This document shows, piece after piece, positions 6,381 to 20,763 of a DNA stretch of 64,000 nucleotides. The position numbers and the translations under genes were made by a program. Positions within the stretch are counted from its first letter, which is position 1. Every line of letters begins with the position of its first letter. Below the pieces are notes generated by a model, which ran no database searches, was not told where the DNA came from, and was given only the letters and a program-made list of their open reading frames with translations. This DNA is from Alphaproteobacteria bacterium (lineage in GTDB: Bacteria; Pseudomonadota; Alphaproteobacteria; ATCC43930; CGMCC-115725), in NCBI GenBank assembly GCA_028871055.1, contig JAGWON010000014.1:1-64000 (forward strand), in the 5' to 3' direction.

Positions 6381-6398
6381 GGCGCCGCCGCCACAAAC

Positions 6399-6653
6399 CT
6401 AGACCCGCCTGACCAGCCGGATGATGGCGACGAGGATCACCGCGCCGATCGTGGCGCTGATGATCGCGCCGATCAGGCCCATGCCGATGAAAATGCCGAG
6501 CGCGCCGAAGAGCCACGACCCGATGAATGCGCCGACGACGCCGACGATCAGGTCGCCGACCAACCCGAAGCCCCGGCCGCGCACGATCTGACCGGCGAGC
6601 CAACCGGCGACCAGGCCAACGAGCAACAGGACGAGGATGCCGCTGCCATGCAT
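6399..6653 (-). CDS. GlsB/YeaQ/YmgE-family stress-associated membrane protein
   Basis: An 84-residue protein of three hydrophobic, glycine-rich helices (ILVLLLVGLVAGWLAGQIV, then LIVGVVGAFIGSWLFGALG, then a C-terminal helix ending in IIRLVRRV). This is the typical layout of the transglycosylase-associated family, small inner-membrane proteins often induced in stress and of unknown mechanism. I chose the ATG at 6653 because it matches the family N-terminus (MHGSGI) and a G-rich Shine-Dalgarno-like tract lies just upstream; a longer in-frame start at 6839 adds non-family sequence through a tRNA remnant. It is convergent with ppc. Confidence 0.85.
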   Translation of the reverse strand: MHGSGILVLLLVGLVAGWLAGQIVRGRGFGLVGDLIVGVVGAFIGSWLFGALGIFIGMGLIGAIISATIGAVILVAIIRLVRRV

Positions 6654-6685
6654 CACGCTATGGTTCCCCCCCCTCAAAAAGGCGC

Positions 6686-6751
6686 GGTGCCCTGGCCGGA
6701 CCCGAACCAGCGCACCTTGCGGGCACCCGCTCAGGCACTGTACATCGAAGA
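6686..6751 (-). repeat. Degenerate tRNA-Leu 3'-end remnant with an attached flank
   Basis: Bases 6686-6725 resemble the 3' part of the tRNA-Leu gene at 19594 (acceptor, T-arm and variable-arm region), with small deletions and substitutions. The 20 bases at 6732-6751 match 15 of 20 positions of the 20 bases following the other tRNA-Leu fragment (18741-18760). The shared flank suggests both descend from one element end and not from independent tRNA decay. No functional tRNA can fold here. Confidence 0.55.
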
Positions 6752-7029
6752 TTGCGCGCGGCGCGACGCGAATTAACCGTACCGAATTCCAGGCGTCCGC
6801 GCTTGAGCGTCGGCCGTTAACCATCTCCGCACCGTCCACTTTTGATCGTGCGACGGTTCGGCGAATTTTTTGGCGTCGCGCCGAAGATTGGCCGCCCGGC
6901 TCTTAACCACGATGGGCTCGTTGGAGCGGCCCATTTTAAGGTGAAGCCGGACCAATAACGCCAAATTTACGCTCGCCCGCTTAAGGTTCCGCAGCGCGCC
7001 CCGCGGCGCGCACGGAATAGTTTCGTGCG

Positions 7030-8589
7030 ATGGTCGACACCCTGGAAAACGATCGCGAAGGCGGGAACGCCGCCGGCACCGCCGCGGCCGGCGGCTCGCT
7101 CGCCGACAAGACGGTCCGCGGCGCCGGCTGGATGGTGACCTGGCGTTTCACCACGCGCACCCTGGGCGCGCTCAGCACCTTCGTGCTCGCGCGTCTGCTG
7201 TCGCCGATGGATTTCGGCCTTGTCGCGCTCGCCGGCGCGTTTGCGCGCGCGGTGGACGCCATGGCGACGCTCGGCATCCAGGACGTGATGCTGCGCGAGA
7301 AGAACCCCGATGAATCCTACTACAGCACCGGCTTTACCCTGGGCCTCGTCCGCACCGGCGCCGCCGCCGTCGTCATCGTCGCCGCGGCCTATCCGGTGGG
7401 CCGCTTTTTCGGCGACCAGCGGCTGAGCGTCATTCTTCTGATCCTCGGCCCCCTGCTGGTGATCGAAAGCTGCGAGAACGTCGGCACGCTCGATTTTCGC
7501 CGTTACTTCCGCTTCGACCGCGATTTCATCCTCTTCATGGTGCCACGCGTTGCCGCGGTCGTCGCCACCGTCGGCACCGCGCTCGTCACCCGCAGCTATT
7601 GGGCCCTGGTCGTCGGCATGGTCGTCCAGAAAACGTCGCGGGTCGCGCTCAGCTATGCGATGCACCCGTTCCGTCCGCAGCTGACGCTCGTCGCCTGGCG
7701 GCGGCTGCTGGGTCTGTCGTCCTGGATCTGGGGCGCCAGCGTTGCCGGCTTCTGCCGCGAGCGCGCCGACTCCTTCATCATCGGCCGCCTGATGAACACG
7801 AGCGCGGTCGGCCTGTTCTCGGCCTCGCTCGAGGTCGCGTTGCTGCCGATCAGCGAGTTCGTCGAGCCGGTGGGTCGCGCGCTCTACGCCGGGCTGTCGG
7901 CAATTCACCACAGCGGCCGCGCGTCGTCCGACACCCTGGCGAAGGCCATGGGCGCGACCTTGTGCATCGTGCTGCCGGCGGGCGTCGGCATCTCGCTGGT
8001 CGCCGCGCCGCTCATCCGCGTCACGCTCGGTCCGGCGTGGCTCGGCGGCGTGCCGCTGGTGGCGATCATCGGGCCGTTCGCCGCGTTCTCGGTCGTCACC
8101 AACATCGGCATGCTCGGCGTCCTGGCGATCGGCAATCCGAAGATCACCACCTTCACGACCGCCGCGATGGCGTTGCTGCGGGTTCCGCTGTTGATTGCCG
8201 GCGTCGCCTTCGGCGGTCTCCAAGGCATCGCCTGGGCCACCGGCGGCGCGCTGGCGCTCGAAAGCGTCATCTATCTCGCGGTCCTCGGCCGGGTGACCGG
8301 TTTCCGCGTCGGCGCCCTCGTCAGCGAGAGCTGGCGCTCCGCCGTCGCCACCGGCGGCATGACGCTGCTGCTGGTCCATCTCGGCCTCGCCTGGAACCCC
8401 GCTCCGGCCGCCCTGCCGGAGGCGTTCGCGCAGCTCGGCATCGCGGCCGCAACCGGCGTCGGCGCCTATGCGGCGCTGCTCCTGGCGCTGTGGGCGATCG
8501 CCGGTTGTCCCGACGGTCCGGAATCCCTGCTCCTGCGCAACGTCGGCCGACGCCTGCCGGTTCTCGCCTTCGGACGGCGGGCCACATGA
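7030..8589 (+). CDS. Oligosaccharide flippase family protein (Wzx/WzxC-like)
   Basis: A 519-residue polytopic membrane protein. After a 30-residue polar N-terminus the frame enters the typical flippase start (SLADKTVRGAGWMVTWRFTTR, then LGALSTFVLARLLSPMDFGLVALA), and about 12-14 hydrophobic segments follow. This matches the polysaccharide-synthesis/flippase superfamily (MOP; PF13440/PF01943), which moves lipid-linked glycans across the inner membrane. It is the first gene of a co-directional set, and its stop codon overlaps the next start (ATGA at 8586). The cargo is unknown; no glycosyltransferase or polymerase lies nearby. Confidence 0.85.
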   Translation: MVDTLENDREGGNAAGTAAAGGSLADKTVRGAGWMVTWRFTTRTLGALSTFVLARLLSPMDFGLVALAGAFARAVDAMATLGIQDVMLREKNPDESYYSTGFTLGLVRTGAAAVVIVAAAYPVGRFFGDQRLSVILLILGPLLVIESCENVGTLDFRRYFRFDRDFILFMVPRVAAVVATVGTALVTRSYWALVVGMVVQKTSRVALSYAMHPFRPQLTLVAWRRLLGLSSWIWGASVAGFCRERADSFIIGRLMNTSAVGLFSASLEVALLPISEFVEPVGRALYAGLSAIHHSGRASSDTLAKAMGATLCIVLPAGVGISLVAAPLIRVTLGPAWLGGVPLVAIIGPFAAFSVVTNIGMLGVLAIGNPKITTFTTAAMALLRVPLLIAGVAFGGLQGIAWATGGALALESVIYLAVLGRVTGFRVGALVSESWRSAVATGGMTLLLVHLGLAWNPAPAALPEAFAQLGIAAATGVGAYAALLLALWAIAGCPDGPESLLLRNVGRRLPVLAFGRRAT

Positions 8590-9656
8590 CGCGCGACCCA
8601 TCGGCGCAAGCGCAACGGCGCGCCCGGCTTCCGGCGGCAAGTCCGCCGCAACTTCTCGTCTTCATCGACACCGAGGAGGAGTTCGACTGGCAGCGGAGCT
8701 TCTCGAGCGACGCCCGGGCGGTCACGGCGATGAAGCACCAATGGCGGGCGCAGACGATCTTCGATCGCTATGGCGTCAAGCCCGCTTATCTCGTCGATTA
8801 TCCCGTCGCGGCGCAAGCGGACGGTTATCAACCGCTGCGTGAATTCCTTGCCGACGGCCGCTGCGAGATCGGCGCGCATCTCCATCCCTGGGTGACGCCG
8901 CCGGTCGAGGAAGAGGTCGGCGAGCGGCATTCCTTTGCGTGCAACCTGCCGCACGACCTGGAACGTCGAAAGCTGGTCATCCTCAAGGAGACGATCGAGC
9001 GCAATCTGGGCGTCGCGCCGACCATCTATCGCGCCGGACGTTACGGCGCCGACGCGGAAACGCGCGCACTGCTCGACGAGCTTGGTTTTGTGATCGACTC
9101 CAGCGTGCTGCCGTGGACCGACCTGCGGCGCATGGCGGGACCGGATTTTCGTCGCTGCTCGCCCGATCCGTTCTGGTTCGGCACCGACGACCGCTTGCTC
9201 GAGATCCCGCTGACGACGGGGTTCCTCGGCCTGCTGCACCGCGTCGGCGCCGACGTCTTTCCGTGGATCGGCGGCACGCGCGGCGTGCGGCTGAAGGCGA
9301 CCGCGATCTGCGCGCACGCGCGGCTGCTCGATCGCATCCGCCTCAGCCCCGAGGGCGTGACCATCGCCGAGGCGAAACGCCTGACGCGCGCCTTGGTCGG
9401 CCGTGGCGAACAAAAGGTCTTCGTCGTCAGCTATCACAGCCCGTCGCTCGGCGTCGGCCACACGCCCTATGTGCGGACGCGACGCGAGTTGGAGCAGTTC
9501 CTTGCCTGGCTCGACGAATATCTCGAGTTTTTCATAGGCGAGATCGGCGGACAGCCGGCGTCGGCGCACGACGTCTACTGCGCCATGGGCGCGGCTCAGG
9601 GCCGCATGCCGCCCCCGCTCGCGCGGCCGAACGAATCGCGCCGGGCGGCCGGTTGA
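8586..9656 (+). CDS. Polysaccharide deacetylase-like protein (WalW/NodB-type)
   Basis: A 356-residue protein of the carbohydrate esterase 4-like (beta/alpha) superfamily. The N-terminal strand LLVFIDTEEEFDW carries the Asp-Thr-Glu metal and catalytic region of the WalW-type branch. GAHLHPWVTPP gives the two histidines, and YRAGRYGADAET and VVSYHSPSLGVG correspond to later barrel motifs. It lacks a signal peptide, so it probably acts in the cytoplasm, or is not a classical secreted chitin or peptidoglycan deacetylase. Its ATG overlaps the flippase stop by 4 nt, so the two genes are translationally coupled. The real substrate cannot be read from sequence. Confidence 0.75.
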   Translation: MTRDPSAQAQRRARLPAASPPQLLVFIDTEEEFDWQRSFSSDARAVTAMKHQWRAQTIFDRYGVKPAYLVDYPVAAQADGYQPLREFLADGRCEIGAHLHPWVTPPVEEEVGERHSFACNLPHDLERRKLVILKETIERNLGVAPTIYRAGRYGADAETRALLDELGFVIDSSVLPWTDLRRMAGPDFRRCSPDPFWFGTDDRLLEIPLTTGFLGLLHRVGADVFPWIGGTRGVRLKATAICAHARLLDRIRLSPEGVTIAEAKRLTRALVGRGEQKVFVVSYHSPSLGVGHTPYVRTRRELEQFLAWLDEYLEFFIGEIGGQPASAHDVYCAMGAAQGRMPPPLARPNESRRAAG

Positions 9657-9670
9657 TGGCCGCGTTGCAG

Positions 9671-9817
9671 CTACGACCGCGTGAACGGCTCCTTGAAGCG
9701 CAGATCGGAACGCCGGCCGAAGCCGAGTCCGCGCAGGATCAGGCTCGCCGCGTGCAACAGCACGGCGATGACGACCAGCGCAACCAGGTTCAACGCGAAC
9801 CAGAGAATATTAACCAT
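9671..9817 (-). CDS. Possible 48-residue single-pass membrane protein
   Basis: A short minus-strand frame inside the 435-bp gap between two plus-strand genes. It has one hydrophobic helix (NILWFALNLVALVVIAVLLH) followed by a basic, polar tail. The ATG at 9817 has GGAAAGG about 9 nt upstream. The codon pattern is natural, but the frame is short and I know no family. The remainder of 9657-10091 shows nothing else. Confidence 0.35.
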   Translation of the reverse strand: MVNILWFALNLVALVVIAVLLHAASLILRGLGFGRRSDLRFKEPFTRS

Positions 9818-10091
9818 GGGATGGGCCTTTCCATATCGGTGCTCTTGACGGCTCCTGCCTTCCATTCAGCAACGCCCGTGCCAGAGGAAAATCGCCAATG
9901 ATGGAAAGGACTTGCCATGACCGGCAGCCGGCCGGCCGGGCTTTCTGTCAGAAAAGCCGACGCTGCGGCGTGCTGCAGCCGGCGCCGGCCGACGGGAAAC
10001 CGGCGCTTTACCATTCGGATGCTATAGAGGCCGGCCGGATGGCGGCGCCGGATCGGCGCGCCGCGCCGGCGACGCGGCTGACGAACGAATC

Positions 10092-11309
10092 ATGAAAAAG
10101 GCTTTGGTCCTATCGAGCGTGTCGCGGACCGTATTGGCGGTGATCCGGTCGCTCGGCCGCGGCGGCGTCGAGGTGCATTCCGCGTGGACGCGGCCGGGCT
10201 GCGTGTCGCTGCGTTCGCGCTATGTCCGCGCCGCGCACGATCTCCCGCCGTACAGCGATACCGATTTGAGCTGGAAGACGGCACTGTGCGACCTGATGCG
10301 GCGCGAGCGCTTCGACCTGGTCATTCCCTGCACCGACATCGATACCCTCGCGCTCCATCGCCATCGCGCCGAGCTCGAGCGCTGCGGTCGCATCTACACG
10401 CCGAACGACGAAGCGGTCGCCGTGCTCTTCGACAAGCACCGCACCAACGAATTGGCGCGCTCGGCCGGCGTGCGCCTGCCGCGCGAGATCGTCGTCACCG
10501 ACGCGACCGGCGCGCGCGCCGCGTGGTGGCAGTTCGGCGCGCCGCTCGTCCTCAAGCCCCGGCGCACCTTCGATCACCCGACCCAGGGCCTCGCAGTGCG
10601 CAAAGCCTACAGCGAGGCGGAACTCTTGCGCCTGCTGCCGAGATTCCTCGCCGACGGGCCGGTCGCCGTGCAGCAGAATTTCATCGGCCACGGCGCCGGC
10701 GTCGAGCTGCTGCTCGATGGCGGCGAACCGCTGCTCGCCTTCCAGCACGTTCGCGTGCACGAGCCGCTCGAAGGCGGCCAGAGCGCCTATCGCAAGAGCG
10801 TGCCGGTGTCGCCGGACTTGCTCGATGCGGCGCTCCGCATCCTGCGACCGTTGCGTTACACCGGCGTGGCGATGGTCGAGTTCAAGATCGACCCGGCGAG
10901 CGGCGACTGGATTTTCGTCGAGGTGAATTCGCGTTTCTGGGGCTCGCTGCCCCTGAGCGTTGCCGCCGGCGCGGATTTCCCGCTCGCGCTGTTCGAGTTC
11001 CTCACGACCGGGCGGCGCGATTTCCCGCAGCACTACCGTACCGGCATCTTCGCGCGCAACTTGCCGCTCGACCTCGAGTGGCAGATCGCCAATCTGCATG
11101 CCGATCGCCGCGATCCCACGCTCGCGACCAAGAAGCTGCCCGCGGTCGTCGGCGAGACGATCGCCAATATTCTGACCCTGCGCGAGCGCTGGGACAGCCT
11201 GACGCTCGACGATCCGGCGCCAGGCATCGCCGAGATCGGCGGCCTCGTGCAGCGCGGCTTTGCCAAGCTGACGAAGCCGCGCCGCGCCCTCGATACGGAG
11301 ACCGCGTGA
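10092..11309 (+). CDS. ATP-grasp family ligase
   Basis: A 405-residue cytoplasmic enzyme with the ATP-grasp order of domains: an N-terminal Rossmann-like pre-ATP domain (KKALVLSSVSRTVLAVIRSL), a central ATP-binding half with a lysine strand (APLVLKPRRTF), and a C-terminal half with the acidic metal-binding strand (GVAMVEFKIDP, then WIFVEVNSRFWGSLPL). This resembles the carbamoyl-phosphate-synthase-like or PylC/carboxylate-amine ligase branch, which joins a carboxylate to an amine or thiol via acyl phosphate. The substrate is unknown. Its stop overlaps the GTG of the acyltransferase gene, so the two are probably coupled. Confidence 0.85.
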   Translation: MKKALVLSSVSRTVLAVIRSLGRGGVEVHSAWTRPGCVSLRSRYVRAAHDLPPYSDTDLSWKTALCDLMRRERFDLVIPCTDIDTLALHRHRAELERCGRIYTPNDEAVAVLFDKHRTNELARSAGVRLPREIVVTDATGARAAWWQFGAPLVLKPRRTFDHPTQGLAVRKAYSEAELLRLLPRFLADGPVAVQQNFIGHGAGVELLLDGGEPLLAFQHVRVHEPLEGGQSAYRKSVPVSPDLLDAALRILRPLRYTGVAMVEFKIDPASGDWIFVEVNSRFWGSLPLSVAAGADFPLALFEFLTTGRRDFPQHYRTGIFARNLPLDLEWQIANLHADRRDPTLATKKLPAVVGETIANILTLRERWDSLTLDDPAPGIAEIGGLVQRGFAKLTKPRRALDTETA

Positions 11310-12556
11310 GCGCGATGGCCGAGACGGCGATCCTTCTCCCGCGCCCGCCCGCGGAACCCGCGGCGCAGGCTCCCGACGATGCCAGGAGCCGCCGCCTCGG
11401 CAAGGAGGCGCGGCTGAGCGTCGTCGTCGAGCAGGATGCGGCGGGTCTCGAGCGGCATCTGCAGGCTTGGGAAGACCTTTCGACCACCGCGCTCGAGCCC
11501 AACGTGTTCTACGAGCCGTGGCTGCTGCGGCCGGCGCTGCGCCACCTGCGCGGCGGCGCCGATCTGGTGTTCGTCCTGGTCTATGCGCAGATGCCGGGTG
11601 CGGCCGACCAGCCGTCCGTGCTCTGCGGATTCTTTCCGCTCGAGCGGCTGAGCCATTACAAGAATCTGCCGGTCAGCGCACTCCGGCTGTGGAAGCACGT
11701 CCATTGCTTTCTCTCCAGCCCGCTGGTCCGCGCCGAGACCGCCCAGGCCTGCTTCCAGGCGGTGTTCGATTGGGCGGCGACCGATCCGCGCGGCTCGATC
11801 CTGATCGAATTCGGCGACGTGTCGGGCGACGGCCCGTTGTGGAAGGCCTTCGTCGAGTTCCTCGAAGACCGCCGCGATCCGACGCTGATGCTCGAATGCA
11901 GCACGCGGGCGCTGTTGCGGCCGCGCGCCGACGCCACGTCCTATCTCGATGCGGCGCTGTCGCCCAAGAAGCGGCGCACGCTCCGCCAGCAGGAAAGCGC
12001 GCTCCGGCGGCAGGGCGCGCTCGAATACGCCATGCTCGCCGGCGACGGCGACATCGACGGCTGGATCGAGAATTTCCTGCGGCTCGAAGCGAGCGGCTGG
12101 AAGGGCCGCGAGGGTACCGCGCTGTCGTGCAACCCGGCGCAGAAGCAGTTCTTCGCCGAGACCCTGCGCGAGGCGTTCCGCCGCGGCCGGCTGATGATGC
12201 TGGCCCAGACGCTCGACGGTCGGCCGATCGCGCAGCTCTGCAATTTCCTCTGCCGGAACGGTTCCTTCGCCTTCAAGGTCGCCTTCGACGAGGCATACGC
12301 GCGCTTTTCGCCCGGCGTGCTCCTGGAGCTCGAGAACATCGCCGAGGTCCACCGCCATGCCTGGATCCGCTGGATGGATTCGTGCTCGTCGCCGGGACCG
12401 TCGCTGACCAAGCAGCTATGGCTCGACCGCCGCATCGTCCAGACCATCCTCGCCACCTCGGGCCGCTCGCCGGGGCCGTTCCTGATCTCGGTGCTGCCGT
12501 TCATGCAGTGGACCTTCCACAAGGTCGAATCCGTCTTCCGCCGGCGCCGGCGGTGA
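11306..12556 (+). CDS. CelD/BcsL-type GNAT N-acyltransferase
   Basis: About 416 residues. The middle to C-terminal region (KKRRTLRQQESALRRQG, then FFAETLREAFRRGRLMMLAQ, then AQLCNFLCRNGSFAFKVAFD) follows the pattern of the Acetyltransf_6 domain (PF13480) found in CelD/BcsL proteins of polysaccharide clusters. These transfer acyl groups, or are FemAB-like and use aminoacyl donors. I chose the GTG at 11306 because it overlaps the upstream stop in a GTGA; the ATG at 11315 is the alternative. Together with the ATP-grasp gene it suggests acyl or aminoacyl decoration of a glycan. Confidence 0.8.
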   Translation: MSAMAETAILLPRPPAEPAAQAPDDARSRRLGKEARLSVVVEQDAAGLERHLQAWEDLSTTALEPNVFYEPWLLRPALRHLRGGADLVFVLVYAQMPGAADQPSVLCGFFPLERLSHYKNLPVSALRLWKHVHCFLSSPLVRAETAQACFQAVFDWAATDPRGSILIEFGDVSGDGPLWKAFVEFLEDRRDPTLMLECSTRALLRPRADATSYLDAALSPKKRRTLRQQESALRRQGALEYAMLAGDGDIDGWIENFLRLEASGWKGREGTALSCNPAQKQFFAETLREAFRRGRLMMLAQTLDGRPIAQLCNFLCRNGSFAFKVAFDEAYARFSPGVLLELENIAEVHRHAWIRWMDSCSSPGPSLTKQLWLDRRIVQTILATSGRSPGPFLISVLPFMQWTFHKVESVFRRRRR

Positions 12557-12572
12557 TGCGGTCCGGTAGACC

Positions 12573-15446
12573 GTGACGCCGCGCAGCAATCTTCAACCCG
12601 TGACCGTGGCGGCGGCGCCGGCCGGCCCGCATCCGAGTGACTCGCCGCTCGCATCCGAGCGCGAATTCTATGCCGGCTATCCATGGTCGTTGAATCCGCT
12701 CTGCACGGTCGGCGACGCCGCCTGCCATCTCGGCGGCGCGCTGTCGCGGCTGACCGCCTTGACCGCCTCATGGCAGCGCGACGAGGCGATGATCAATGTC
12801 TTCCTCCTGGCCGGCGCGCTGCTGACCGCGGTCGAAGACGCGTTGCGCGGTCCGGTCCTGCGTGTTCCGCATCGTCTGGCGCGGCTGCCGGGCGCGCGCC
12901 GAGGTTTCGGCGCGCTGGCCGCCGTCCTGGCCGCCGGACGCACGACCGAGGTGCGACGCCTGCGGCGCTGGCGCGACGAATGGCAGGCCGCCCTCGGCGG
13001 ATTTCTGGGAATTTTTGCCGCCGGCCAGCCCGCCGAGGCCGACGATCTGGCTTCGGCGGTCGCCGGTCTCGCCGCGGTCCTGGCCCGGCCTTTGCCGCGC
13101 CGGTTCCAGACGGAGTTGATCCGGATCCCGTCGGCGTTCCGCAAGCAGGATCTAACGCATTTCGACGTTCTGGAGCTGGCCGATCGCTTCGCGGCGCGGC
13201 ACGCGGACCGGCGGCAACCGGTCGTGGTCGTCGGCCTGCGCACCGCCGGCGTCTATTTCGCGTCGCTGATGGGCGCCCGCCTCGCAGCGCGCGGCTTTCA
13301 CCGCGTCGCGACGCTGACCGTCCGGCCGACCAAGGGGCTTTCCGCCGAGGAGACGCAACGGCTGCGCAAGTTCGCCGCGGCGGGTTACCACGCGGCGCTG
13401 ATCGACGATCCGCCGTTCAGCGGCGATACCATCGGCATCGCGGTGCAGGCGCTGCGCCGCGCCGGTTTCGGCGCCGACGCGCGCACCGTCCTTTTTCCGG
13501 TGCATCCGCTGCGGCGCGACTGGCGCGACCACAAGGAGGCGGCGGCCTTTGCCGGCGAGACCATCGTCACGCTCATGCCCGAGGACTGGCACAAGGCCCG
13601 CATGCTCGACGCCGAAAGCGGCATCGCCGCGCGGCTGGTCGAGTATTTCGGCGCGCGCGGCTATCGCAGCGCGACGGTGATCGCGCATCATGCCGCCGCG
13701 GCCTTCAACGCCGAGCTCGACTATCGCTCGGGCGACTGCCGGCGGCATCGGCTCAAGCGGGTCTACGCCGTTCGCCTCGAGACTGCCGCCGGCCGCAGCG
13801 AGACGCGCTATGTCTTCGCCAAGAGCGTCGGCTGGGGCTGGCTCGGCTACGCGGCCTTCCTGGCCGCCGACCGGCTCGCCGGCCGCGTGCCGCCGCTGCT
13901 CGGCCTGCGCGAAGGCATTCTCTATACCGAATGGATGCCGCAAGCCGCGGGAACCGACCGCGCAACCGCGCCGCGCGACACGTGGGTGGCTACCGCCGCC
14001 GGCTATGTCGCCGAACGCGCCGAGCGGCTGGCGATCGCGGCGCCGGGCGCGCCGGACGCGCAGCACGAAGGCCTGGCGCTGCTCGCCGACACGCTGTCCG
14101 CCGCCTACGGCCCCGGCGTCGCCGGCCTGATGACGGAACCGCTGCGGCGCCGCATCGCGGCGCGCCTGACGCCGCGTCCGGCCCTGATCGACGGGCGGAT
14201 GGCGGCGGACGAATGGATCGCCGGCCCCAGCGGCCTGCTGAAAACCGATTTCGAGCATCACGGCATCGGCAAGAACGAGATCAATCTGTGCGATCCGGCC
14301 TACGATCTGGCCGATGCCGCGCTGCAGCTCGGTCTGTCCGCCGACGAAGAGCGCGAGCTGATTGCGCGCTACGGTGCCGCGACCGGCGACGCGCCGCGCG
14401 GCGAGCGCCTCCTGCTGTGCAAGCTGGCGGCCGGGCTGTGGACGCGCCAGGCGGCGCTCGACGGCCTCGTGAAGCAGCCGCACCTCGCGCATCGCGCCGG
14501 CGCGTTCAACGCGCAGTACCTGAAGGCGTGGAATTTTCTCATCCGCGAGAGCGCGCGGTACTGCGGCGCACTCTGCTTGCCGTCGGCGCCGCCGGCCTGG
14601 CGCGCGCCGCTGACGGTGCTCGATCTCGACGGTGTGGTCGATCGCCGGATCTTCGGCTTCCCGACGACCACCGCGGCGGGCATCGCCGCGCTGGCCCTGC
14701 TGCGCGCGCGCGGCTTCGCCATCGCGGTCGACACGGCGCGGCCGGCGCCCCAGGTTCGCGATTACTGCGCGGCCTATGGCTTCGTCGGCGGCGTTGCCGA
14801 GTGCGGCGCCTATGTCTGGGATGCGACGGCGCGGCAAGGCCGCGTCTTGCTCGACGAGGCCGCGCTGGAGCAGCTTGCGACGTTGCGCGCGCTGCTCCGG
14901 GACCTGCCCGGCGTGTTCGTCGACGACGACTATGAATTCTCGATCCGCGCCTACACCTACACGCGCAAGGGCACGGCGCCGCTGCCCGAATTGCTGGTGC
15001 GCAACCTCATCGCCGCGCGGAATTTCGACCGCCTCGCCGCCCACCAGACGACGATCGACACGCTGATCCTGGCCAAGGGCGCCGACAAAGGCAGCGGCCT
15101 GGCAGCGCTGCTCGCGTGGACCGGGCTGGATCGCGGCGATACCGTCGCGGTCGGCGATTCCGAAACCGATCTGCCGATGTTCGCGGTCGCCCAACGCAGC
15201 TTTGCGCCGGCGCACATCGATTGCGGCCGGCTGGCGCGCGCGGCCGGCTGCGAGGTGGCGCGGGCGCCCTTCCAGCGCGGCCTGCTCGAGATCGCGCAGC
15301 GCATCGCCGGCTCCGGCGAAATCCCCATCGCGGCCGCACCGGACGACCTCTTCTGGACGCTCTTGCGCGCCGCGGACCGGCCGCGCGCGGCGAATTTCTG
15401 GCGCGCCCTGCGCGAGCCCTCGGCCTATCGCGTCTTTCTGGCCTGA
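12573..15446 (+). CDS. Fusion protein: phosphoribosyltransferase-like, kinase-like and HAD phosphatase domains
   Basis: A 957-residue cytoplasmic protein with at least three enzyme-like parts. Residues 1-150 are helical and unassigned. Residues about 190-330 look like a type I phosphoribosyltransferase: VVVVGLRTAGVYFASLM near 217 and a PRPP-loop-like LIDDPPFSGDT with Asp278. Residues about 370-600 look like an aminoglycoside-phosphotransferase-type kinase (KTDFEHHGIGKNEINLCDP from 557, then AYDLADAAL). Residues about 680-900 are a HAD phosphatase of the Cof/C2-cap type with DLDGVVD (Asp684), a Lys in GADKGSG and GDSETD (Asp862). It uses a GTG start 16 nt after the acyltransferase gene and ends the five-gene set. 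I know no characterised protein with this domain order. Confidence 0.7.
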   Translation: MTPRSNLQPVTVAAAPAGPHPSDSPLASEREFYAGYPWSLNPLCTVGDAACHLGGALSRLTALTASWQRDEAMINVFLLAGALLTAVEDALRGPVLRVPHRLARLPGARRGFGALAAVLAAGRTTEVRRLRRWRDEWQAALGGFLGIFAAGQPAEADDLASAVAGLAAVLARPLPRRFQTELIRIPSAFRKQDLTHFDVLELADRFAARHADRRQPVVVVGLRTAGVYFASLMGARLAARGFHRVATLTVRPTKGLSAEETQRLRKFAAAGYHAALIDDPPFSGDTIGIAVQALRRAGFGADARTVLFPVHPLRRDWRDHKEAAAFAGETIVTLMPEDWHKARMLDAESGIAARLVEYFGARGYRSATVIAHHAAAAFNAELDYRSGDCRRHRLKRVYAVRLETAAGRSETRYVFAKSVGWGWLGYAAFLAADRLAGRVPPLLGLREGILYTEWMPQAAGTDRATAPRDTWVATAAGYVAERAERLAIAAPGAPDAQHEGLALLADTLSAAYGPGVAGLMTEPLRRRIAARLTPRPALIDGRMAADEWIAGPSGLLKTDFEHHGIGKNEINLCDPAYDLADAALQLGLSADEERELIARYGAATGDAPRGERLLLCKLAAGLWTRQAALDGLVKQPHLAHRAGAFNAQYLKAWNFLIRESARYCGALCLPSAPPAWRAPLTVLDLDGVVDRRIFGFPTTTAAGIAALALLRARGFAIAVDTARPAPQVRDYCAAYGFVGGVAECGAYVWDATARQGRVLLDEAALEQLATLRALLRDLPGVFVDDDYEFSIRAYTYTRKGTAPLPELLVRNLIAARNFDRLAAHQTTIDTLILAKGADKGSGLAALLAWTGLDRGDTVAVGDSETDLPMFAVAQRSFAPAHIDCGRLARAAGCEVARAPFQRGLLEIAQRIAGSGEIPIAAAPDDLFWTLLRAADRPRAANFWRALREPSAYRVFLA

Positions 15447-15455
15447 GCGAACGAT

Positions 15456-15471
15456 CGGCGTTCGGACGCCG
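15456..15471 (+). terminator. Hairpin after the five-gene set
   Basis: CGGCGT-TCGG-ACGCCG forms a 6-bp stem with a 4-nt loop 10 nt after the stop codon at 15446. There is no U-tract, so it is a weak terminator candidate. Confidence 0.3.
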
Positions 15472-15583
15472 AGATTCGAGTCACCAACTACACAGAGAGC
15501 GTGCGGGCATACATCTCCGGATCGGCCTGTCTGATCCAAGGCCGTGATGCCGCACAACGCGGGCCGACCACTTCGTTGACCGC

Positions 15584-15602
15584 TATACGACATTGTCGTA
15601 TA
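15584..15602. promoter_or_regulatory. Palindromic operator of the HigA/HigB-type operon
   Basis: TATACGAC-ATT-GTCGTATA is a perfect inverted repeat with 8-bp arms. It ends 7 nt before the antitoxin ATG at 15610, and no Shine-Dalgarno sequence fits in between. XRE-type antitoxins commonly bind such palindromes to repress their own operon. The TATA-rich arms probably overlap the -10 region, implying a leaderless or nearly leaderless transcript. Confidence 0.7.
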
Positions 15603-15609
15603 AAGCGGC

Positions 15610-15942
15610 ATGCGAGCACGGAAGAAAGCGGTGCGGACGACGCTGGGCCGGCGGATCGAGAGGGCGGCGCTTGACGTCGCGGCCCACTTGCGTGGCAAGC
15701 GGCCCGGGCTTTCGTCCTACGAAGCGGTTGTTCCGGAAACCATCGACGTGTCGGGATTGCGAACGCGACTGGGTCTGTCGCAGGCTGCGTTTGCCCGGAC
15801 GTTCGGGCTCGATCTCACGGCGGTCCAGGCCTGGGAACAAGGCCGCCGCCGACCCGATCGGGCGGCGCGAATCCTGCTTGCGGTGATCGCCCATGAGCCG
15901 AAGGCCGTGCTGCGCACGCTGACGGTGGAAGCCGCCAAGTAA
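15610..15942 (+). CDS. HigA/NadS-type antitoxin with XRE helix-turn-helix
   Basis: A 110-residue protein with a C-terminal XRE domain: LRTRLGLSQAAFARTFGL followed by AVQAWEQGRRRPD is a canonical helix-turn-helix of the HigA/NadS type. The basic N-terminus (MRARKKAVRTTLGRRIERA) would wrap the toxin or DNA. It is expected to neutralise the RelE/HigB-like product encoded 28 nt downstream and to repress transcription through the palindrome at 15584-15602. Antitoxin-first order is the reverse of classical higBA. A later start cannot be excluded because no ribosome binding site precedes this ATG. Confidence 0.8.
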   Translation: MRARKKAVRTTLGRRIERAALDVAAHLRGKRPGLSSYEAVVPETIDVSGLRTRLGLSQAAFARTFGLDLTAVQAWEQGRRRPDRAARILLAVIAHEPKAVLRTLTVEAAK

Positions 15943-15970
15943 CAGCCAGACCCGCGCCAGCAACGAAATC

Positions 15971-16306
15971 ATGAAAGTCGTTGCCGGCCAAAATTATGCG
16001 CGGCGGGCGGCCAAGCTCCTGTCGCGAGAAGAACGCGCGATCGCCGAGGCCGAAATCATCGCGCGGCCGGATGCATGGCCGATGATTCAAGGCACCGGCG
16101 GCGCGCGCAAAGCGCGCATCGCGATGTCGGGCCGCGGCAAGCGCGGCGGCGCCCGTCTGATCTATTTCTACGCGCCGACGGACTCCTTCCTGGCGCTGCT
16201 CGACATCTACGCCAAGGGCGCAAAAGAGGATTTGACCAGCGCCGACAAGAGCGCGATCCGTGCGGCGATCCAAGCGATTCGCGCGGCGTTGCGGTCTGCG
16301 CCCTGA
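15971..16306 (+). CDS. RelE/HigB-like toxin
   Basis: A 111-residue protein with the HigB2/RelE pattern in the sequence GTGGARKARIAMSGRGKRGG and the following strand ARLIYFYAPTDSFLALLDIY. Family members are ribosome-dependent mRNA endonucleases, with the basic GRGKRGG patch contacting RNA. It lies 28 nt behind the XRE antitoxin and probably shares its transcript. The C-terminal helix (SADKSAIRAAIQAIRAAL) is typical. No truncation is apparent. Confidence 0.8.
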   Translation: MKVVAGQNYARRAAKLLSREERAIAEAEIIARPDAWPMIQGTGGARKARIAMSGRGKRGGARLIYFYAPTDSFLALLDIYAKGAKEDLTSADKSAIRAAIQAIRAALRSAP

Positions 16307-16592
16307 AAGCGTTGTCGTCAGCGGGTCGCCGCGCCCAGTGTCACATTCAGCGGTTGGTCGGGTGGGAAATGGCGGTGGAGGCGGGCCACTCGAGTTCTCG
16401 CGGATCGCAGAAGGCAAGGTGGAAATGCCAAAGGCCGTTCGCGAGAAAATCTACTCCGACCCTAATTCTCGCACCCAGGCCATTGAGAGTACGGCTCGAA
16501 TTCATATCTCCGGGGCGTATATTTCTCCCGTAGGTATGCCTGCTTTTCCAATGGTATAGTTTTCACAAAGCATGCCTTAAACGGAGGAAGCC
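16307..16592. other. AT-richer spacer without recognised gene
   Basis: A 286-bp stretch between the toxin gene and the secreted-protein gene. The last 110 bases are visibly less GC-rich than the surroundings. I see no RNA gene or palindrome; only the Shine-Dalgarno of the next gene (GGAGG at 16583-16587) is clear. Confidence 0.4.
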
Positions 16593-17195
16593 TTGCTTTC
16601 CGCTACGGTGCGCTTGGCGACAGCGAGTGCTCTATTGGTTTCGGTGATCGCAGCCGCCGATGCGCAAACCGCAAAACCGCAACCTGACTCCGGTCTCGAG
16701 CGCAATATTAACGACCGTAACGCCGCGTTTTGGGCCGATTGGAAACTAACGGAGAAGAGCCCCAGCTTCGGCGCCTTGATAAGGACCGTTGGCAGCGCCG
16801 ACAAAACAAGCGCGATGGTTCAGGCCGCAGCCCGAACGCCAACGCAAGCGGTCGTACCAATCGGGATCAATCGCCCGCAAGACGCGGCAAAGGTCCTGGA
16901 CGCCGCATCAGCACCCGAAAACAATCCGGAAATCAAAGCGGCGCTGGCAACCGTGGTCACCATGCGCGTCTCGCCCGAGACGCGCAAAGCAGCGATGCCC
17001 TATGTCGCGCCGGAAGCGCAGCAGCGCGTCGAAGCCTGGAATGCGAATTTGACGACCGGCATCCGCGGTCTGCCGGGCATCTATTTGAACTGGAATGGCA
17101 ACGCCGGCAGCGGGGGCGGCGAATCGAGCGTGCCATCGGCGCCCGCTGGATTCGAACCGATTGCCGGCGGATCGATCGGCTGTCCATTGCAATAA
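16593..17195 (+). CDS. Secreted protein of unknown function
   Basis: A 200-residue protein starting with TTG, supported by GGAGG 5 nt upstream. The N-terminus is a signal peptide (VRLATASALLVSVIAAADAQ, cleavage probably after ADA), so the product is periplasmic or exported. The mature part is polar and has no recognisable domain. It ends with a Gly/Ser-rich tail and a single Cys near the C-terminus (GGSIGCPLQ). It is followed after 32 nt by a DsbA-like gene, so the lone cysteine may be a thiol partner; that is inference. Confidence 0.6.
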   Translation: MLSATVRLATASALLVSVIAAADAQTAKPQPDSGLERNINDRNAAFWADWKLTEKSPSFGALIRTVGSADKTSAMVQAAARTPTQAVVPIGINRPQDAAKVLDAASAPENNPEIKAALATVVTMRVSPETRKAAMPYVAPEAQQRVEAWNANLTTGIRGLPGIYLNWNGNAGSGGGESSVPSAPAGFEPIAGGSIGCPLQ

Positions 17196-17227
17196 GAAGA
17201 CGATGTAACTTTGGGAGAGCGCGTTCA

Positions 17228-17866
17228 ATGGCATCTCGGCGAAATCTCCTGATTGGCGGCATTGGTGCTGCGGTGGTGGCAGCGGGCGGATGGATCGCGA
17301 TCGAGCGGTTCGGTCTTCTGGCGCCGGCGACGCATAAGACACCCGCGAAACCACCGCTCCTCGGCAACGTGACGGCTCCGAAACGCCTCGTCGTCTGGGG
17401 CAGTTACACATGCCCGTTCACGGCGCAGCTTTTTGTCATGTTGCGAAGCATCGTCGCGGATATGCCCCAAACGGCGAGCGTCGAATGGCGGCATTTCCCG
17501 ATTCACAAGCCCGACCCGGCTCTCCAGGTTGCAGGGCTTGGATTCGAAGGCGATCATTTTTGGGGCTTCACCTTCAGAGTCTTGAATCTGGTGTTGAAGG
17601 CGGGTGGGATGTACTCCGGCCTGACGCGGCAAAAACTCGACGAGTTCGCCGCCGCCGAAGGAGGGTCCGACGAAACGTTCAAGGCCGCCTATGCTGATCC
17701 GGCAAAATGGGCCGCCGTAAAGGAGGATCTTTTGGCCGGTCGTCTGCTCGGCGTCACAAGAACGCCCGGTTTGTTCTACAACGGTTATTTCCTGACGCCG
17801 ACCGGACTACCTGCGAACATCAAAGGACTGGAGATGTCGCTGCGCAAGATGTTGCAGACGGCATGA
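17228..17866 (+). CDS. DsbA-like thioredoxin-fold protein with CPFT active site
   Basis: A 212-residue exported protein. The N-terminus (MASRRNLLIGGIGAAVVAAG) has a twin-arginine motif and a hydrophobic segment, so it may use Tat and stay membrane-anchored. The thioredoxin-fold start reads RLVVWGSYTCPFTAQLF: Cys62 is kept, but the second active-site cysteine is Thr65. A cis-Pro region is visible near the end (VTRTPGLFYNGYFL). Typical DsbA/Com1 proteins have CPYC or CPHC, so this one could form mixed disulfides but not oxidise by the usual dithiol mechanism. It forms a pair with the secreted-protein gene upstream. Confidence 0.7.
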   Translation: MASRRNLLIGGIGAAVVAAGGWIAIERFGLLAPATHKTPAKPPLLGNVTAPKRLVVWGSYTCPFTAQLFVMLRSIVADMPQTASVEWRHFPIHKPDPALQVAGLGFEGDHFWGFTFRVLNLVLKAGGMYSGLTRQKLDEFAAAEGGSDETFKAAYADPAKWAAVKEDLLAGRLLGVTRTPGLFYNGYFLTPTGLPANIKGLEMSLRKMLQTA

Positions 17867-17881
17867 CGCGTCGCTCCGGCG

Positions 17882-18115
17882 GGGGGCGCCCGCAAAGAGA
17901 TAGTCGTTCCACGGCCAGCTGCCGCCCGAGCCGGTGAACTTCTCGGCGAGGATGCCGCCGCCGTTGAAGTAGAGGGTGGTGCCCTCGGGCGCGACCTGCT
18001 GATAGCGCTGATGCTCGGGATCGTAGGTGAAGGTGAGGGTGGTCGAGCCTTTGGCGATCGTCGCCGGCTTATTGAAGGCGGTGTAGGTGAGCGTCCGCCC
18101 GGCGCACGCGGTCAC
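17882..18115 (-). pseudogene. RHS/YD-repeat protein remnant
   Basis: The minus strand encodes about 78 residues of RHS-type sequence, including LTYTAFNKPATIAKGSTTLT, FTYDPEHQRYQQVA and TTLYFNGGGILAEK, ending in NDYLFAGA. These are features of RHS repeats just before the core region of large secreted polymorphic toxins. Homology stops on both sides without a start codon context, repeat array or core motif, so this is a relic of a much larger gene. It lies between the DsbA-like gene and a toxin-antitoxin pair. Confidence 0.65.
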
Positions 18116-18144
18116 CCGAGGGGCTGTCGGAAATGTGGCTTTGT

Positions 18145-18155
18145 GATACGGTATC
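18145..18155. promoter_or_regulatory. Small palindrome abutting the antitoxin start
   Basis: GATAC-G-GTATC is a perfect 11-bp palindrome ending 4 nt before the ATG at 18160. It is positioned like the operator of the HigA-type pair at 15584 and probably serves autoregulation. No Shine-Dalgarno sequence is present. Confidence 0.4.
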
Positions 18156-18159
18156 GACG

Positions 18160-18387
18160 ATGACAAAGCTGCTCGAAGAAGCGATTGCAACGATCCGCGG
18201 TCTGCCCGAAGACGATCAAGACTTGGCGGCGAAATTCCTCTTGGGATTCGCCAATCCGGATGCGCATCGCTATCGACTGAACGACGATCAGGCCGCGGCA
18301 GTCGAGCAAGCCCGCAGGGAAACGCGCGAAGGCAAGATCGCGACTGACGCGGAAATGGCCGACGTGTGGCGTCGCTTCCGCCGCTGA
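18160..18387 (+). CDS. Antitoxin of a ParE/RelE-type pair
   Basis: A 75-residue, helical, charged protein (LLEEAIATIRGLPEDDQDLA, then DDQAAAVEQARRETREG, then a C-terminal DAEMADVWRRF). Proteins of this shape sit directly before ParE-type toxins in many proteobacteria. The C-terminal DAEMADVWRRF part is the expected toxin-binding tail. The downstream toxin start lies within its last codons. The DNA-binding part is not obvious, so the class is uncertain. Confidence 0.7.
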   Translation: MTKLLEEAIATIRGLPEDDQDLAAKFLLGFANPDAHRYRLNDDQAAAVEQARRETREGKIATDAEMADVWRRFRR

Positions 18388-18671
18388 TCCTGCGTTATAG
18401 CGCGCGGGCCAGGGCGCACCTCCTTTCCATCCACGATCACCTCGAGAAGGAAGGCAACGCCGCCGCCATTGCGCGGGTCGGTGCCGGCATTCGTGAAGCC
18501 GTGGAGATACTGCGTTACTTCCCGCAGGCAGGCCGTCCCGGAAGAATTCCCGGCACGCGCGAGTGGGTAACGCGACGATTGCCCTATATCGTCGTGTATG
18601 AGATTTACCCTGGCGGCCCGGGAGAGGTCGTAATTCTCGGCGTTTTTCACGCGCGACAGGCGCGGCCGTAA
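18366..18671 (+). CDS. ParE/RelE-family toxin
   Basis: A 101-residue protein with the ParE layout: LILRYSARARAHLLSIHDHL helix, EAVEILRYFPQAGRPG turn, and C-terminal strands (WVTRRLPYIVVYEI, then EVVILGVFHARQ). ParE toxins poison DNA gyrase, while RelE relatives cut mRNA; the sequence does not decide between them. It begins at a GTG inside the antitoxin gene (22-nt overlap), indicating translational coupling. The gene ends 6 bp before a displaced tRNA-Leu 3' end. Confidence 0.8.
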   Translation: MASLPPLILRYSARARAHLLSIHDHLEKEGNAAAIARVGAGIREAVEILRYFPQAGRPGRIPGTREWVTRRLPYIVVYEIYPGGPGEVVILGVFHARQARP

Positions 18672-18676
18672 AGACG

Positions 18677-18731
18677 TGGTGCCCCTGGCCGGACTCGAAC
18701 CAGCACACCCTTGCGGGCAACGGATTTTGAG
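18677..18731 (-). repeat. Displaced 55-bp copy of the tRNA-Leu 3' end
   Basis: These 55 bases match positions 19594-19648 of the intact tRNA-Leu(CAA) gene with only two differences, in the same orientation. They run from the encoded CCA end to the anticodon. Homology stops abruptly there. This is the direct-repeat structure left by site-specific integration into a tRNA 3' end. The 862 bp between the copies hold one complete toxin-antitoxin pair and no integrase. Confidence 0.75.
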
Positions 18732-18842
18732 ACACCTACATAGGCATTATACTTCAAAGACTTAGACCAACTCGGTGCAGATTAGGTGCACCACGATGCG
18801 CGGCGTCCCGCTTACCGGACCCGCATGACAAGGATACTTCGG

Positions 18843-19154
18843 CTAGGTCGAACGTCGCCGGGCCAATCGGTGCGCGCGCAATTTGCGCTCGCCCCGCATT
18901 ACATGGAGCACGAAGACCCGCCGGCCGTCATAGCGATAGAAAATCCGGCATGGCGGCTCGACGACCTGCCGGTAGCGCCAGCCGCGCAGCTCCTGCGGCT
19001 TGGAGCCGCTTTCCGGATGTTCCGCAAGCAAGGCGACATGGCGAAAGACAGCCTGAACCAGCCGGCGCGCCGCCTCCGGGTCGTCGAGCGCGATATGGTC
19101 GGCAATGGCATCGAGGTCGTTGAGCGCGGGCTCCGTCCAGATTACTTCAGCCAT
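18843..19154 (-). CDS. ParE/RelE-family toxin
   Basis: A 103-residue toxin: VIWTEPALNDLDAIADHIAL helix start, RLVQAVFRHVALLAEHPESG middle, and GWRYRQVVEPPCRIFYRYDG with RRVFVLHVMRGERKLR at the end. The order is that of ParE-type toxins. The ATG at 19154 lies inside the end of the Phd-like antitoxin gene (13-nt overlap), so the two are coupled. It differs from the ParE-like protein at 18366, so this is not a duplication. The pair sits between the two copies of the tRNA-Leu 3' end. Confidence 0.8.
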   Translation of the reverse strand: MAEVIWTEPALNDLDAIADHIALDDPEAARRLVQAVFRHVALLAEHPESGSKPQELRGWRYRQVVEPPCRIFYRYDGRRVFVLHVMRGERKLRAHRLARRRST

Positions 19155-19399
19155 CGCGCCAAGCGCTTGGCTGCCTGGGCGTGGGTCAACACGCGCCCCT
19201 CGTCGACCGCCTTCTCGCCGCGCGCGATGCCCTCGAGCAGCGCCATGCGCCGCTGCTGCCGCTCGTAGGACTGGACATCGATCAGATAGGCGGCCGGCAA
19301 TCCATGTTGCGTGATCAGCACCGGCTCTTGCTCGCGCTTCAACGCCGCGAGGAGCTTCGTCGCCTTCCGCTTCAGCGTGGTCACGAGCTCGGTGCGCAT
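19142..19399 (-). CDS. Phd/YefM-family antitoxin
   Basis: An 85-residue protein with the Phd/YefM pattern: LKRKATKLLAALKREQEPVL, then ITQHGLPAAYLIDVQSYERQ. The N-terminal half dimerises and binds DNA, and the C-terminal tail (AVDEGRVLTHAQAAKRLARW) should bind the overlapping ParE-like toxin. Two AGTGATACT repeats spaced by one helical turn lie directly upstream (19402-19421) and are the likely operator. There is no Shine-Dalgarno sequence before the ATG. Confidence 0.85.
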   Translation of the reverse strand: MRTELVTTLKRKATKLLAALKREQEPVLITQHGLPAAYLIDVQSYERQQRRMALLEGIARGEKAVDEGRVLTHAQAAKRLARWLK

Positions 19400-19401
19400 A
19401 G

Positions 19402-19421
19402 AGTGATACTAAAGTGATACT
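19402..19421. promoter_or_regulatory. Direct-repeat operator of the Phd-type operon
   Basis: AGTGATACT occurs twice (19402-19410 and 19413-19421) with an 11-bp period, so both faces align on the helix. It starts 3 nt upstream of the Phd-like start codon and probably also covers the -10 region (TAGTAT on the minus strand). Confidence 0.55.
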
Positions 19422-19593
19422 CGGGGAGATGCAAGCGACCCTTCTTACATGCGTCGCCAGACCTTTCCTGGGCGGCGTTCGACACGTCCAGCCCGCCAAA
19501 CCGCGCCTTCCAGGTCGCGCCGCCGATCGGACGACGAACGGATTCGCGTTCCGCGATTGCCGCGTTTGGAAGACCTGCGCGAATTTCTGGCGC

Positions 19594-19680
19594 TGGTGCC
19601 CCTGGCCGGACTCGAACCAGCACGCCCTTGCGGGCAACAGATTTTGAGTCTGCCGCGTCTACCAATTCCGCCACAGGGGC
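19594..19680 (-). tRNA. tRNA-Leu (anticodon CAA)
   Basis: The minus strand folds into a class II tRNA of 87 nt including an encoded CCA. The acceptor stem pairs GCCCCTG with CAGGGGC. The D-loop contains GGTAGAC. The anticodon stem GCAGA/TCTGT holds the loop CTCAAAA with anticodon CAA. A long variable arm (TGCCCGCAAGGGCG region) and the T-loop GTTCGAGTC follow. It decodes UUG. A promoter lies 10 nt upstream. Confidence 0.95.
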
Positions 19681-19690
19681 AGCGGCGGCC

Positions 19691-19718
19691 ACTATAGCCG
19701 GGGGTCCCGGCGGGTCAA
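19691..19718 (-). promoter_or_regulatory. Promoter of tRNA-Leu
   Basis: On the minus strand TTGACC is followed after 16 nt by TATAGT, close to the sigma-70 consensus. The -10 box lies 10 nt before the tRNA 5' end, consistent with a short leader. Confidence 0.65.
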
Positions 19719-19770
19719 TGCGCAGGGCAATCGCATTTGGATTTTCCGCACTTCGATTCCAACCGTCCCC

Positions 19771-19883: not shown

Positions 19884-19993
19884 TGTCTCAGTTTGGCCTC
19901 ATCCTGAGGAGCCCCACGCCCTCGATGCTTCGAGACGCTGCGCTCCTCAGCATGAGGGCGTGGGGCGTCTCGAAGGAAGGCCAAACTGAGACA
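19884..19993. repeat. 110-bp composite inverted repeat
   Basis: Outer arms TGTCTCAGTTTGGCC (19884-19898) and GGCCAAACTGAGACA (19979-19993) pair perfectly. The interior holds the near-palindromic CCTCATCCTGAGGAGC and GCTCCTCAGCATGAGG plus CCCCACGCCCTC and GAGGGCGTGGGG. It looks like an interspersed palindromic element and may be a mobile or regulatory RNA structure. The surrounding spacer 19681-20127 has no gene. Confidence 0.6.
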
Positions 19994-20127: not shown

Positions 20128-20763
20128 GTGCTCGTCAAGATCGTTCCGTCGCTCGCCGTGCTGATCGTCGCGACGATCTCGAGCCTCGGCTATGGCGGCA
20201 TCGTCGTCCTGATGGCGATCGAGTCGGCCTGCATTCCGCTGCCGTCCGAGATCATCATGCCGTTCTCCGGCTATCTGGCGTCGACCGGTCGCTTCGATCT
20301 CGTCCTGGTTGCGACGGCGGGCGCGATCGGCTGCAACGTCGGCTCGACCGTCGCCTATGCCGTCGGCCACTACGGCGGCCGTCCGTTCATCGACCGGTGG
20401 GGCGGCACCATCATGATGGGAAGGCGGGAGCTCGATTGGGCGCACCGCTTCTTCGCCCGCTATGGCGGCATCACCGTGTTCGTCGGCCGGCTGCTGCCGG
20501 TCATCCGCACGTTCATCGCGTTGCCGGCCGGCATCGCCGGTATGCCGCAGGCGAAATTCCAGATCTACACCTTCGTCGGCTCGTGGCTCTGGTCCTACGG
20601 GCTGGCCTATGTCGGATACAAGCTGGGCGAGCAGTGGAACAGCAACCCCGTCTTCCAGGCGGCGATGCGCCGCTCCGACGTGGCGATCGGCGCCGCGATC
20701 GTCCTTGGCATCGGCTGGTATATCTGGTGGCATGTGAAGCATCGCCTGCGGCCGGGGGATTAG
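20128..20763 (+). CDS. DedA-family membrane protein
   Basis: A 211-residue inner-membrane protein of the DedA/SNARE-associated superfamily. It shows ESACIPLPSEIIMPFSGYLA in the first re-entrant region and GRLLPVIRTFIALPAGIAGM with the conserved arginine in the second, plus flanking transmembrane helices. DedA proteins flip phospholipid head groups or undecaprenyl phosphate and support membrane homeostasis. The GTG start at 20128 gives the typical N-terminus. It stands alone between repeat-rich spacers. Confidence 0.9.
   Translation: MLVKIVPSLAVLIVATISSLGYGGIVVLMAIESACIPLPSEIIMPFSGYLASTGRFDLVLVATAGAIGCNVGSTVAYAVGHYGGRPFIDRWGGTIMMGRRELDWAHRFFARYGGITVFVGRLLPVIRTFIALPAGIAGMPQAKFQIYTFVGSWLWSYGLAYVGYKLGEQWNSNPVFQAAMRRSDVAIGAAIVLGIGWYIWWHVKHRLRPGD

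Follow-up and report, generated by a model that had tools for sequence, protein, structure and literature searches.

The tRNA-Leu(CAA) gene of the window, by which we mean the whole 64,000-nucleotide stretch of DNA that was analysed, has very probably been the target of a tandem accretion of tyrosine-integrase islands, whose remaining modules either lost their integrase or never had one. Judged by sequence comparison, the insertion extends from about 6686 to 19593, 12.9 kb in two modules, because its flanks and a single tRNA gene are contiguous in a relative of the same genus. The target gene and the displaced tRNA fragments are:

19594..19680, minus strand: intact tRNA-Leu(CAA) gene, the integration target (ARAGORN; Rfam, 57.5 bits; comparison with the empty site)
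19642..19648, minus strand: anticodon loop, TTTTGAG on the plus strand, where the identity between the tRNA gene and the fragment at 18677 ends
18677..18731, minus strand: fragment f2, a displaced tRNA-Leu 3' half that agrees with the gene at 53/55 positions (repeat comparison, BLAST)
6686..6725, minus strand: older and decayed displaced tRNA-Leu 3' fragment, f1, 88% identical (search of the window's own genome with the region)

The direct repeat consisting of 18677-18731 and 19594-19648 is identical at 53 of 55 positions on the same strand with a spacing of 917, just as the sequence-only reading had described it, with 55 bp of the tRNA-Leu(CAA) 3' end copied, bar two differences, in the orientation of the gene and at a distance of 917 bp from it. 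BLAST within the 64-kb window recovers the 55-bp repeat with an E value of 1e-21, and a 25-bp pattern taken from it (up to 3 mismatches) occurs at the 18677 and 19594 copies only and in none of 100 shuffles. Fragment f2 breaks off exactly at the anticodon loop and is followed by an attP-like flank; it differs at one position from the tRNA half of another relative (G003) and at two from its own tRNA gene. Fragment f1 lacks about 15-16 bp, the loop included. The target tRNA is restored and a displaced 3' fragment lies in the same orientation, as is typical of islands in tRNA genes. We infer that the anticodon loop (19642..19648) is the 7-bp crossover segment and that the 3' half now completing the gene (19594-19648) came in with the last module. 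To the right of the tRNA gene the window also contains a 40-nt inverted repeat (19884-19993) that is 80% complementary.

The genes that flank the insertion all show DNA similarity in the three relatives G001, G002 and G003:

3597-6380, plus strand: phosphoenolpyruvate carboxylase, left flank of the empty site (PF00311, 1079.9 bits)
6399-6653, minus strand: Transgly_assoc protein, left flank of the empty site (PF04226)
20128..20763, plus strand: VTT-domain (DedA-type) gene, right flank of the empty site (PF09335)

In G002, which belongs to the same genus, the left genes, one intact tRNA-Leu gene and the right gene lie contiguously on one contig that is letter for letter JAGWIH010000122.1 of Alphaproteobacteria bacterium isolate REEB11 (locus L043); window 3641-6722 corresponds to 6122-3040, and 19593-19722 of the window to 3080-2951, followed by the VTT gene, in a draft assembly, as are those of G001 and G003, that is 85% complete with 7% contamination and has a second, partial PEP carboxylase contig. 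This empty site, together with the break of f2 at the anticodon loop and the attP-like flank, bears out the earlier proposal of an integrase-type insertion at the tRNA 3' half. That proposal had also regarded the segment between f2 and the gene as possibly the last, toxin-stabilised scar of an island and had predicted relatives with one tRNA end and no such segment. G002 indeed has one tRNA gene and no segment, and the segment does appear to be the tRNA-proximal insertion module, but it is not the whole scar: what G002 lacks is the entire 12.9 kb with its two modules, the farther one marked by f1, and we found no relative that has the farther module without the nearer one. Whether G002 never had the insert or lost it again by precise excision, the unit would be the same. 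A search for further relatives yielded 80 loci; ARAGORN recognised a tRNA gene in four of these, among which L072, the G002 contig, was alone in having tRNA-Leu(CAA) next to PEP carboxylase, and no additional relative was gained.

Both f1 and f2 run from the tRNA 3' end toward the anticodon loop and then pass into a conserved non-tRNA element of about 60 bp, here called e, which begins exactly where the tRNA identity ends, at the 7-nt loop, and which is decayed in the f1 unit. It was searched for with a model of the tRNA half plus e (R1, 116 positions) and with a model of e only (R2). The corresponding features are:

18732..18791, plus strand: attP-like flank e of module A, the tRNA-proximal module (R2, 69.7 bits)
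18761-18769, 18771-18779 and 18782-18790, plus strand: presumed arm-type repeats in e, CTTAGACCA, CTCGGTGCA and TTAGGTGCA, respectively (from the alignment)
6726..6782, plus strand: decayed attP-like flank copy adjoining f1 (R2, 46.8 bits, E 6.8e-12; R1, 68 bits)

Since R1 and R2 were built from the six copies themselves, these scores are high by construction and it is the absence of matches elsewhere that is informative. Among 43 genomes of the order six fragment-plus-e units, four in G001 and two in the window's own genome (G000), reach position 104-115 of the 116 in R1, whereas under stricter filters every other match listed ends by position 93. R2 matches six places in 2 of 39 genomes of the family, all at the tRNA-Leu locus. 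Five of the six e copies were compared and are identical to one another at 40-57 of 60 positions; 20,000 random 60-mers from the window reach at most 27/60 against one e copy. The repeats of the TTAGGTGCA type in e are spaced at 10-11 bp. G001 has four copies of a paired TAGGTGCA-N2-3-TAGGTGCA motif, two of them in e elements and two at an integrase gene beside the tRNA; G000, G002 and G003 have none, the window copy of the pair being imperfect. Because e starts at the loop and bears repeats that recur at the G001 integrase, we read the e elements as half attachment sites that presumably serve as arm sites. Two e-element patterns had no match in viral contigs.

These observations are very probably explained by repeated integration into tRNA-Leu(CAA) as a hot spot for islands that belong to one tyrosine-integrase family and whose attP consists of a tRNA-Leu 3' half starting at the anticodon loop plus the presumed arm-site element e. 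Upon insertion, the island's own 3' half would complete the tRNA gene, and the 3' half already present would be moved to the island's far end and come to abut e. The next island would enter at the same loop and push the earlier one away, such that older modules come to lie further from the tRNA. In the window there have very probably been at least two insertions, presumably that of module B first, with its displaced end at 6686, and then that of a second island between module B and the tRNA, with its displaced end at 18677, which is now the 862-bp remnant, module A. Under this accretion model module A is probably the youngest, because it is tRNA-proximal. Lacking an integrase, modules A and B would be remnants of the cis-mobilizable type.

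A longer array is found in G001, where on one contig the left neighbour is followed by four fragment-plus-e units at C2:4555, 5682, 27332 and 42802. They delimit three complete modules of about 1, 22 and 15 kb and a fourth, incomplete one of about 6.7 kb from the last unit to the contig end, with a cargo that includes a SnoaL-like gene, glycogen and PPDK-type genes, a CHASE2 cyclase, a CHAT protein and kdp-type genes. At the same place G003 carries an unrelated 12.5-kb segment with Pfam domains of a methyltransferase, acyl-CoA dehydrogenase, thiolase, 3-hydroxyacyl-CoA dehydrogenase and acetyl-CoA hydrolase; at the position expected for e its best R2 score is 6.1 bits (E 0.15), which gives no clear element. 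No homology between the window modules and the G001 and G003 inserts was detected by tblastx (E up to 1e-5), nor by tblastn with 13 window proteins (E up to 1e-4). The displaced halves of G001 are themselves informative. In f3 the variable arm is altered on both sides at three of its four pairs, and in f4 both-side changes affect two pairs of the variable arm and two of the T arm; all nine pairs examined are kept in each. Moreover, f4 is 89% identical to a tRNA-Leu from a genome in another family as against 76% to the window's gene and 43/55 to G001's own. Because pairing is kept by changes on both sides and f4 is closer to the tRNA-Leu of another family, an arrival of these halves with islands from functional foreign tRNA genes fits the sequences better than decay in place. 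We read the displaced halves with their compensatory pairs as a record of foreign halves that may once have completed the gene. With its empty site, one array of two modules and another with four fragments, this one genus offers an unusually clear case of tandem accretion, in which the conserved half-site ties integrase-less modules to one integrase family.

What the two window modules carry is as follows:

18732..19593, no strand: module A, the shortest, tRNA-proximal insertion remnant, 862 bp, bounded by f2 and the tRNA gene, no integrase
18843..19157, minus strand: ParE toxin-family gene, 104 aa (PF05016, 71.6 bits)
19142..19399, minus strand: Phd/YefM antitoxin gene, 85 aa, which shares 16 bp with the start of the toxin gene (PF02604, 48.7 bits; TIGR01552)
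6726..18676, no strand: module B, an older 12-kb insertion between f1 and f2, absent in G002, that holds genes of polysaccharide type, one DsbA-like gene and two pairs of toxin-antitoxin type
7030-8589, plus strand: flippase-type Polysacc_synt protein (Pfam)
8586-9656, plus strand: deacetylase-like protein (by eye; no Pfam match)
10092-11309, plus strand: ATP-grasp-like protein (Pfam)
11315-12556, plus strand: GNAT protein (Pfam)
12573-15446, plus strand: 957-aa protein with a C-terminal HAD domain (Pfam)
15610..16306, plus strand: HTH antitoxin-like plus RelE-like toxin genes (weak MqsA/NadS-type matches; RelE 26.4 bits against a Pfam cut-off of 27)
17228..17866, plus strand: DsbA/thioredoxin-like protein (Pfam)
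18133-18387, plus strand: putative antitoxin, a small ORF upstream of ParE with no family match
18366-18671, plus strand: second ParE toxin (PF05016, 54.7 bits)

By eye, the minus strand at 17807-18190 encodes a peptide like an RHS/YD repeat, with no Pfam or NCBIfam match. No transfer genes were found among the 14 island ORFs scanned with Pfam. At the far end of module B the loop is deleted, and module B is probably immobile because this crossover site is gone. Module A has an intact loop at both ends and presumed arm repeats at its far end; none were found at its near end, where the approximately 20-bp proximal end of the three G001 modules is likewise absent and no TAGGTGCA site lies near the tRNA. 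The proximal side of module A was presumably lost by deletion.

Is the toxin-antitoxin pair the reason why this remnant persists? The enclosed segment holds, as the sequence-only reading had stated, nothing but a Phd/ParE-type pair, and with both family matches above the Pfam cut-off in adjacent, overlapping genes this is a predicted type II pair. The 18133..18671 pair of module B ends 6 bp to the left of f2, so that two of the five ParE matches of the window's genome fall into a 760-bp stretch around f2. None was found in G001-G003, and the nearest relative of the toxin among 39 genomes of the family is 37% identical, with no relative in G001-G003. Because of this clustering, the absence from G001-G003 and the distance of the nearest relative, the pairs most likely came with the insertions. 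The module A pair may have raised the cost of losing the last module, and toxin-antitoxin systems do stabilise islands elsewhere, according to PMC8978831 and PMC5704250. The case described in the former was, however, one in which the pair left the excision rate unchanged and affected the loss after excision, and in modules that lack an integrase excision should be rare. Moreover, the three complete modules of the G001 array have no integrase, ParE or Phd/YefM match, these being the families searched, and persist all the same; stabilisation by ParE/Phd is therefore not needed in general. On balance a toxin-stabilised scar seems a possible but rather doubtful explanation for the persistence of module A. 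The locus would be a fair test of whether scar persistence needs a toxin-antitoxin pair.

An integrase gene was found at the locus in G001, where the tRNA-Leu gene adjoins the N-terminal part of a tyrosine integrase (Arm-DNA-bind_3, PF13356, 43.9 bits; Phage_int_SAM_3) that is cut by the contig end and has no catalytic domain in the part present. Its presumed start codon overlaps the first of three TAGGTGCA-type repeats (L037 538-567). In the window modules no integrase was found with PF00589 or by tblastn with the G001 N-part (E up to 1), which under the same setting has no match in the other array loci compared either; PF00589 matches no array member in G000 or G001. The N-part is equally without a match in G000, in the phage and plasmid collections and in the viral contigs. 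G000 is 99% complete and encodes three PF00589 proteins, none of them at the tRNA-Leu locus. Two are presumably XerC and XerD, as their counterparts in G001-G003 score alike. The third, of 457 aa, lies near a tRNA-Phe. Relatives of the G001 integrase exist in 117 genomes of the class, the best with 42% identity; at 30 loci of such distant relatives (flanks up to about 1.5 kb) ARAGORN found a tRNA in 0/30 and a single TAGGTGCA site occurred in one. None of these searches turned up an intact island that combined the integrase, both arms and the tRNA. The window modules are probably immobile unless a matching element arrives, because no cognate integrase was found in G000 and the window modules have neither the proximal motif nor proximal TAGGTGCA sites.

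The absence of the integrase N-part and of PF00589 matches from the arrays would also be expected of cassettes mobilised in trans, that is of modules that never had an integrase and whose conserved ends are recognised by a resident or visiting one. The three G001 modules are alike over about 20 bp at their tRNA-proximal ends, a similarity reached by 0 of 200,000 random triples for a stretch that was chosen after alignment, which means that both ends are conserved there. But these three proximal ends have no TAGGTGCA site within 2 kb, the e elements themselves apart, the window modules do not share the proximal motif, and no cognate integrase was found in G000, all of which makes mobilisation in trans an unlikely origin of the modules. 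We give equally little credence to the extended version of a tRNA-Leu-anchored cassette system, in which modules of 1 to 22 kb that lack an integrase and are conserved at both ends would be inserted serially in trans and small toxin-antitoxin fillers would resist loss; if such a system existed, each insertion would swap in a foreign 3' half and leave an ordered series of former tRNA-Leu halves. An old tandem duplication in which one tRNA copy later lost its 5' half, which the sequence-only reading had named as a possible refutation and which would explain why 55 bp of the tRNA recur in the same orientation, can practically be dismissed, as the sequence past the break is not a tRNA 5' half (11/32 identical in the window copy, 11-16/32 over five copies), is conserved in all six fragments, and G002 has one tRNA and no segment. 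A duplication that included a toxin was considered separately and rejected: the two toxins flanking f2, both of PF05016, give no BLASTP alignment.

Tandem accretion of tyrosine-integrase islands is a familiar process, and it is the locus that is new: in the open-licence PMC literature we found analogues but no earlier description of this exact locus. The closest analogues, as outlined in PMC5704250, are cis-mobilizable elements (CIMEs) formed by tandem accretion, which like the window consist of tandem att-bounded units at the end of a single target gene, comprise units without integration genes, and receive later elements at the target-gene side. The window differs from them in that no ICE or IME partner with conjugation genes was present among the proteins scanned, that the far site of module B is decayed and that proximal arm sites were not found. 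The ssrA islands of Dehalococcoides, too, occur as multiple tandem islands marked by repeats of an RNA-gene 3' end, 15 of them without an integration module in the account of PMC3146451; their target is tmRNA and their recombinase a serine recombinase, in contrast to tRNA-Leu(CAA), an arm-binding tyrosine integrase and a different break point here. Additive flexible islands and tycheposons, in the part of PMC10872708 devoted to them, share with the window the recurring tRNA-end repeats and the tRNA-anchored tyrosine recombinase elements, but are described with 20-bp tRNA-Lys repeats and a tRNA-Met element with xerD, whereas the repeats here have 55 bp, extend to the anticodon loop and are joined to a repeat-bearing element. 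Finally, the islands catalogued by Islander resemble the window in their displaced 3' tDNA fragment, restored gene and anticodon-loop crossover, the last recorded for 2083/3919 islands; since Islander, as characterised in PMC4383910, requires an integrase, and one for each member of a tandem array, the window modules would be filtered out.

Outside the genus, the paired TAGGTGCA repeat is present in two of 385 sampled genomes of the class, G306 and G351, once in each, and its reversed-pattern control in none among the matches listed. In G306 (L236 1384-1667) the pair lies about 30 bp from tRNA-Leu(CAA), the 5' half of which recurs 197 bp further along, starting precisely at the loop (39 bp, 97%) and enclosing a 158-bp segment with two TAGGTGCA sites; beyond it follows a DsbB gene, as downstream of the window's tRNA, and the repeats run in the other direction. 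This has the appearance of a further minimal scar at the same loop, of the opposite tRNA half. In G351 (L235 917-1157) TAGGTGCA-like repeats cluster upstream of an ORF, and a stretch nearby resembles, by eye, a tRNA 3' end; the ORF was tentatively taken by eye for an integrase start, which Pfam did not confirm, and it is not counted as evidence. A 55-bp tRNA-Leu 3' half with the same break point occurs in G040, a member of another family (L044 5258-5315), next to a different flank with TTTGTCTC short repeats recognised by eye, which suggests a different integrase acting at the same loop. At L198 (about 1500-1790, G011:C89), which has no Rfam match at the gathering threshold, tRNA-Leu 3' and 5' halves stand some 210 bp apart at the anticodon loop, an arrangement that could reflect either an intron or an insertion.
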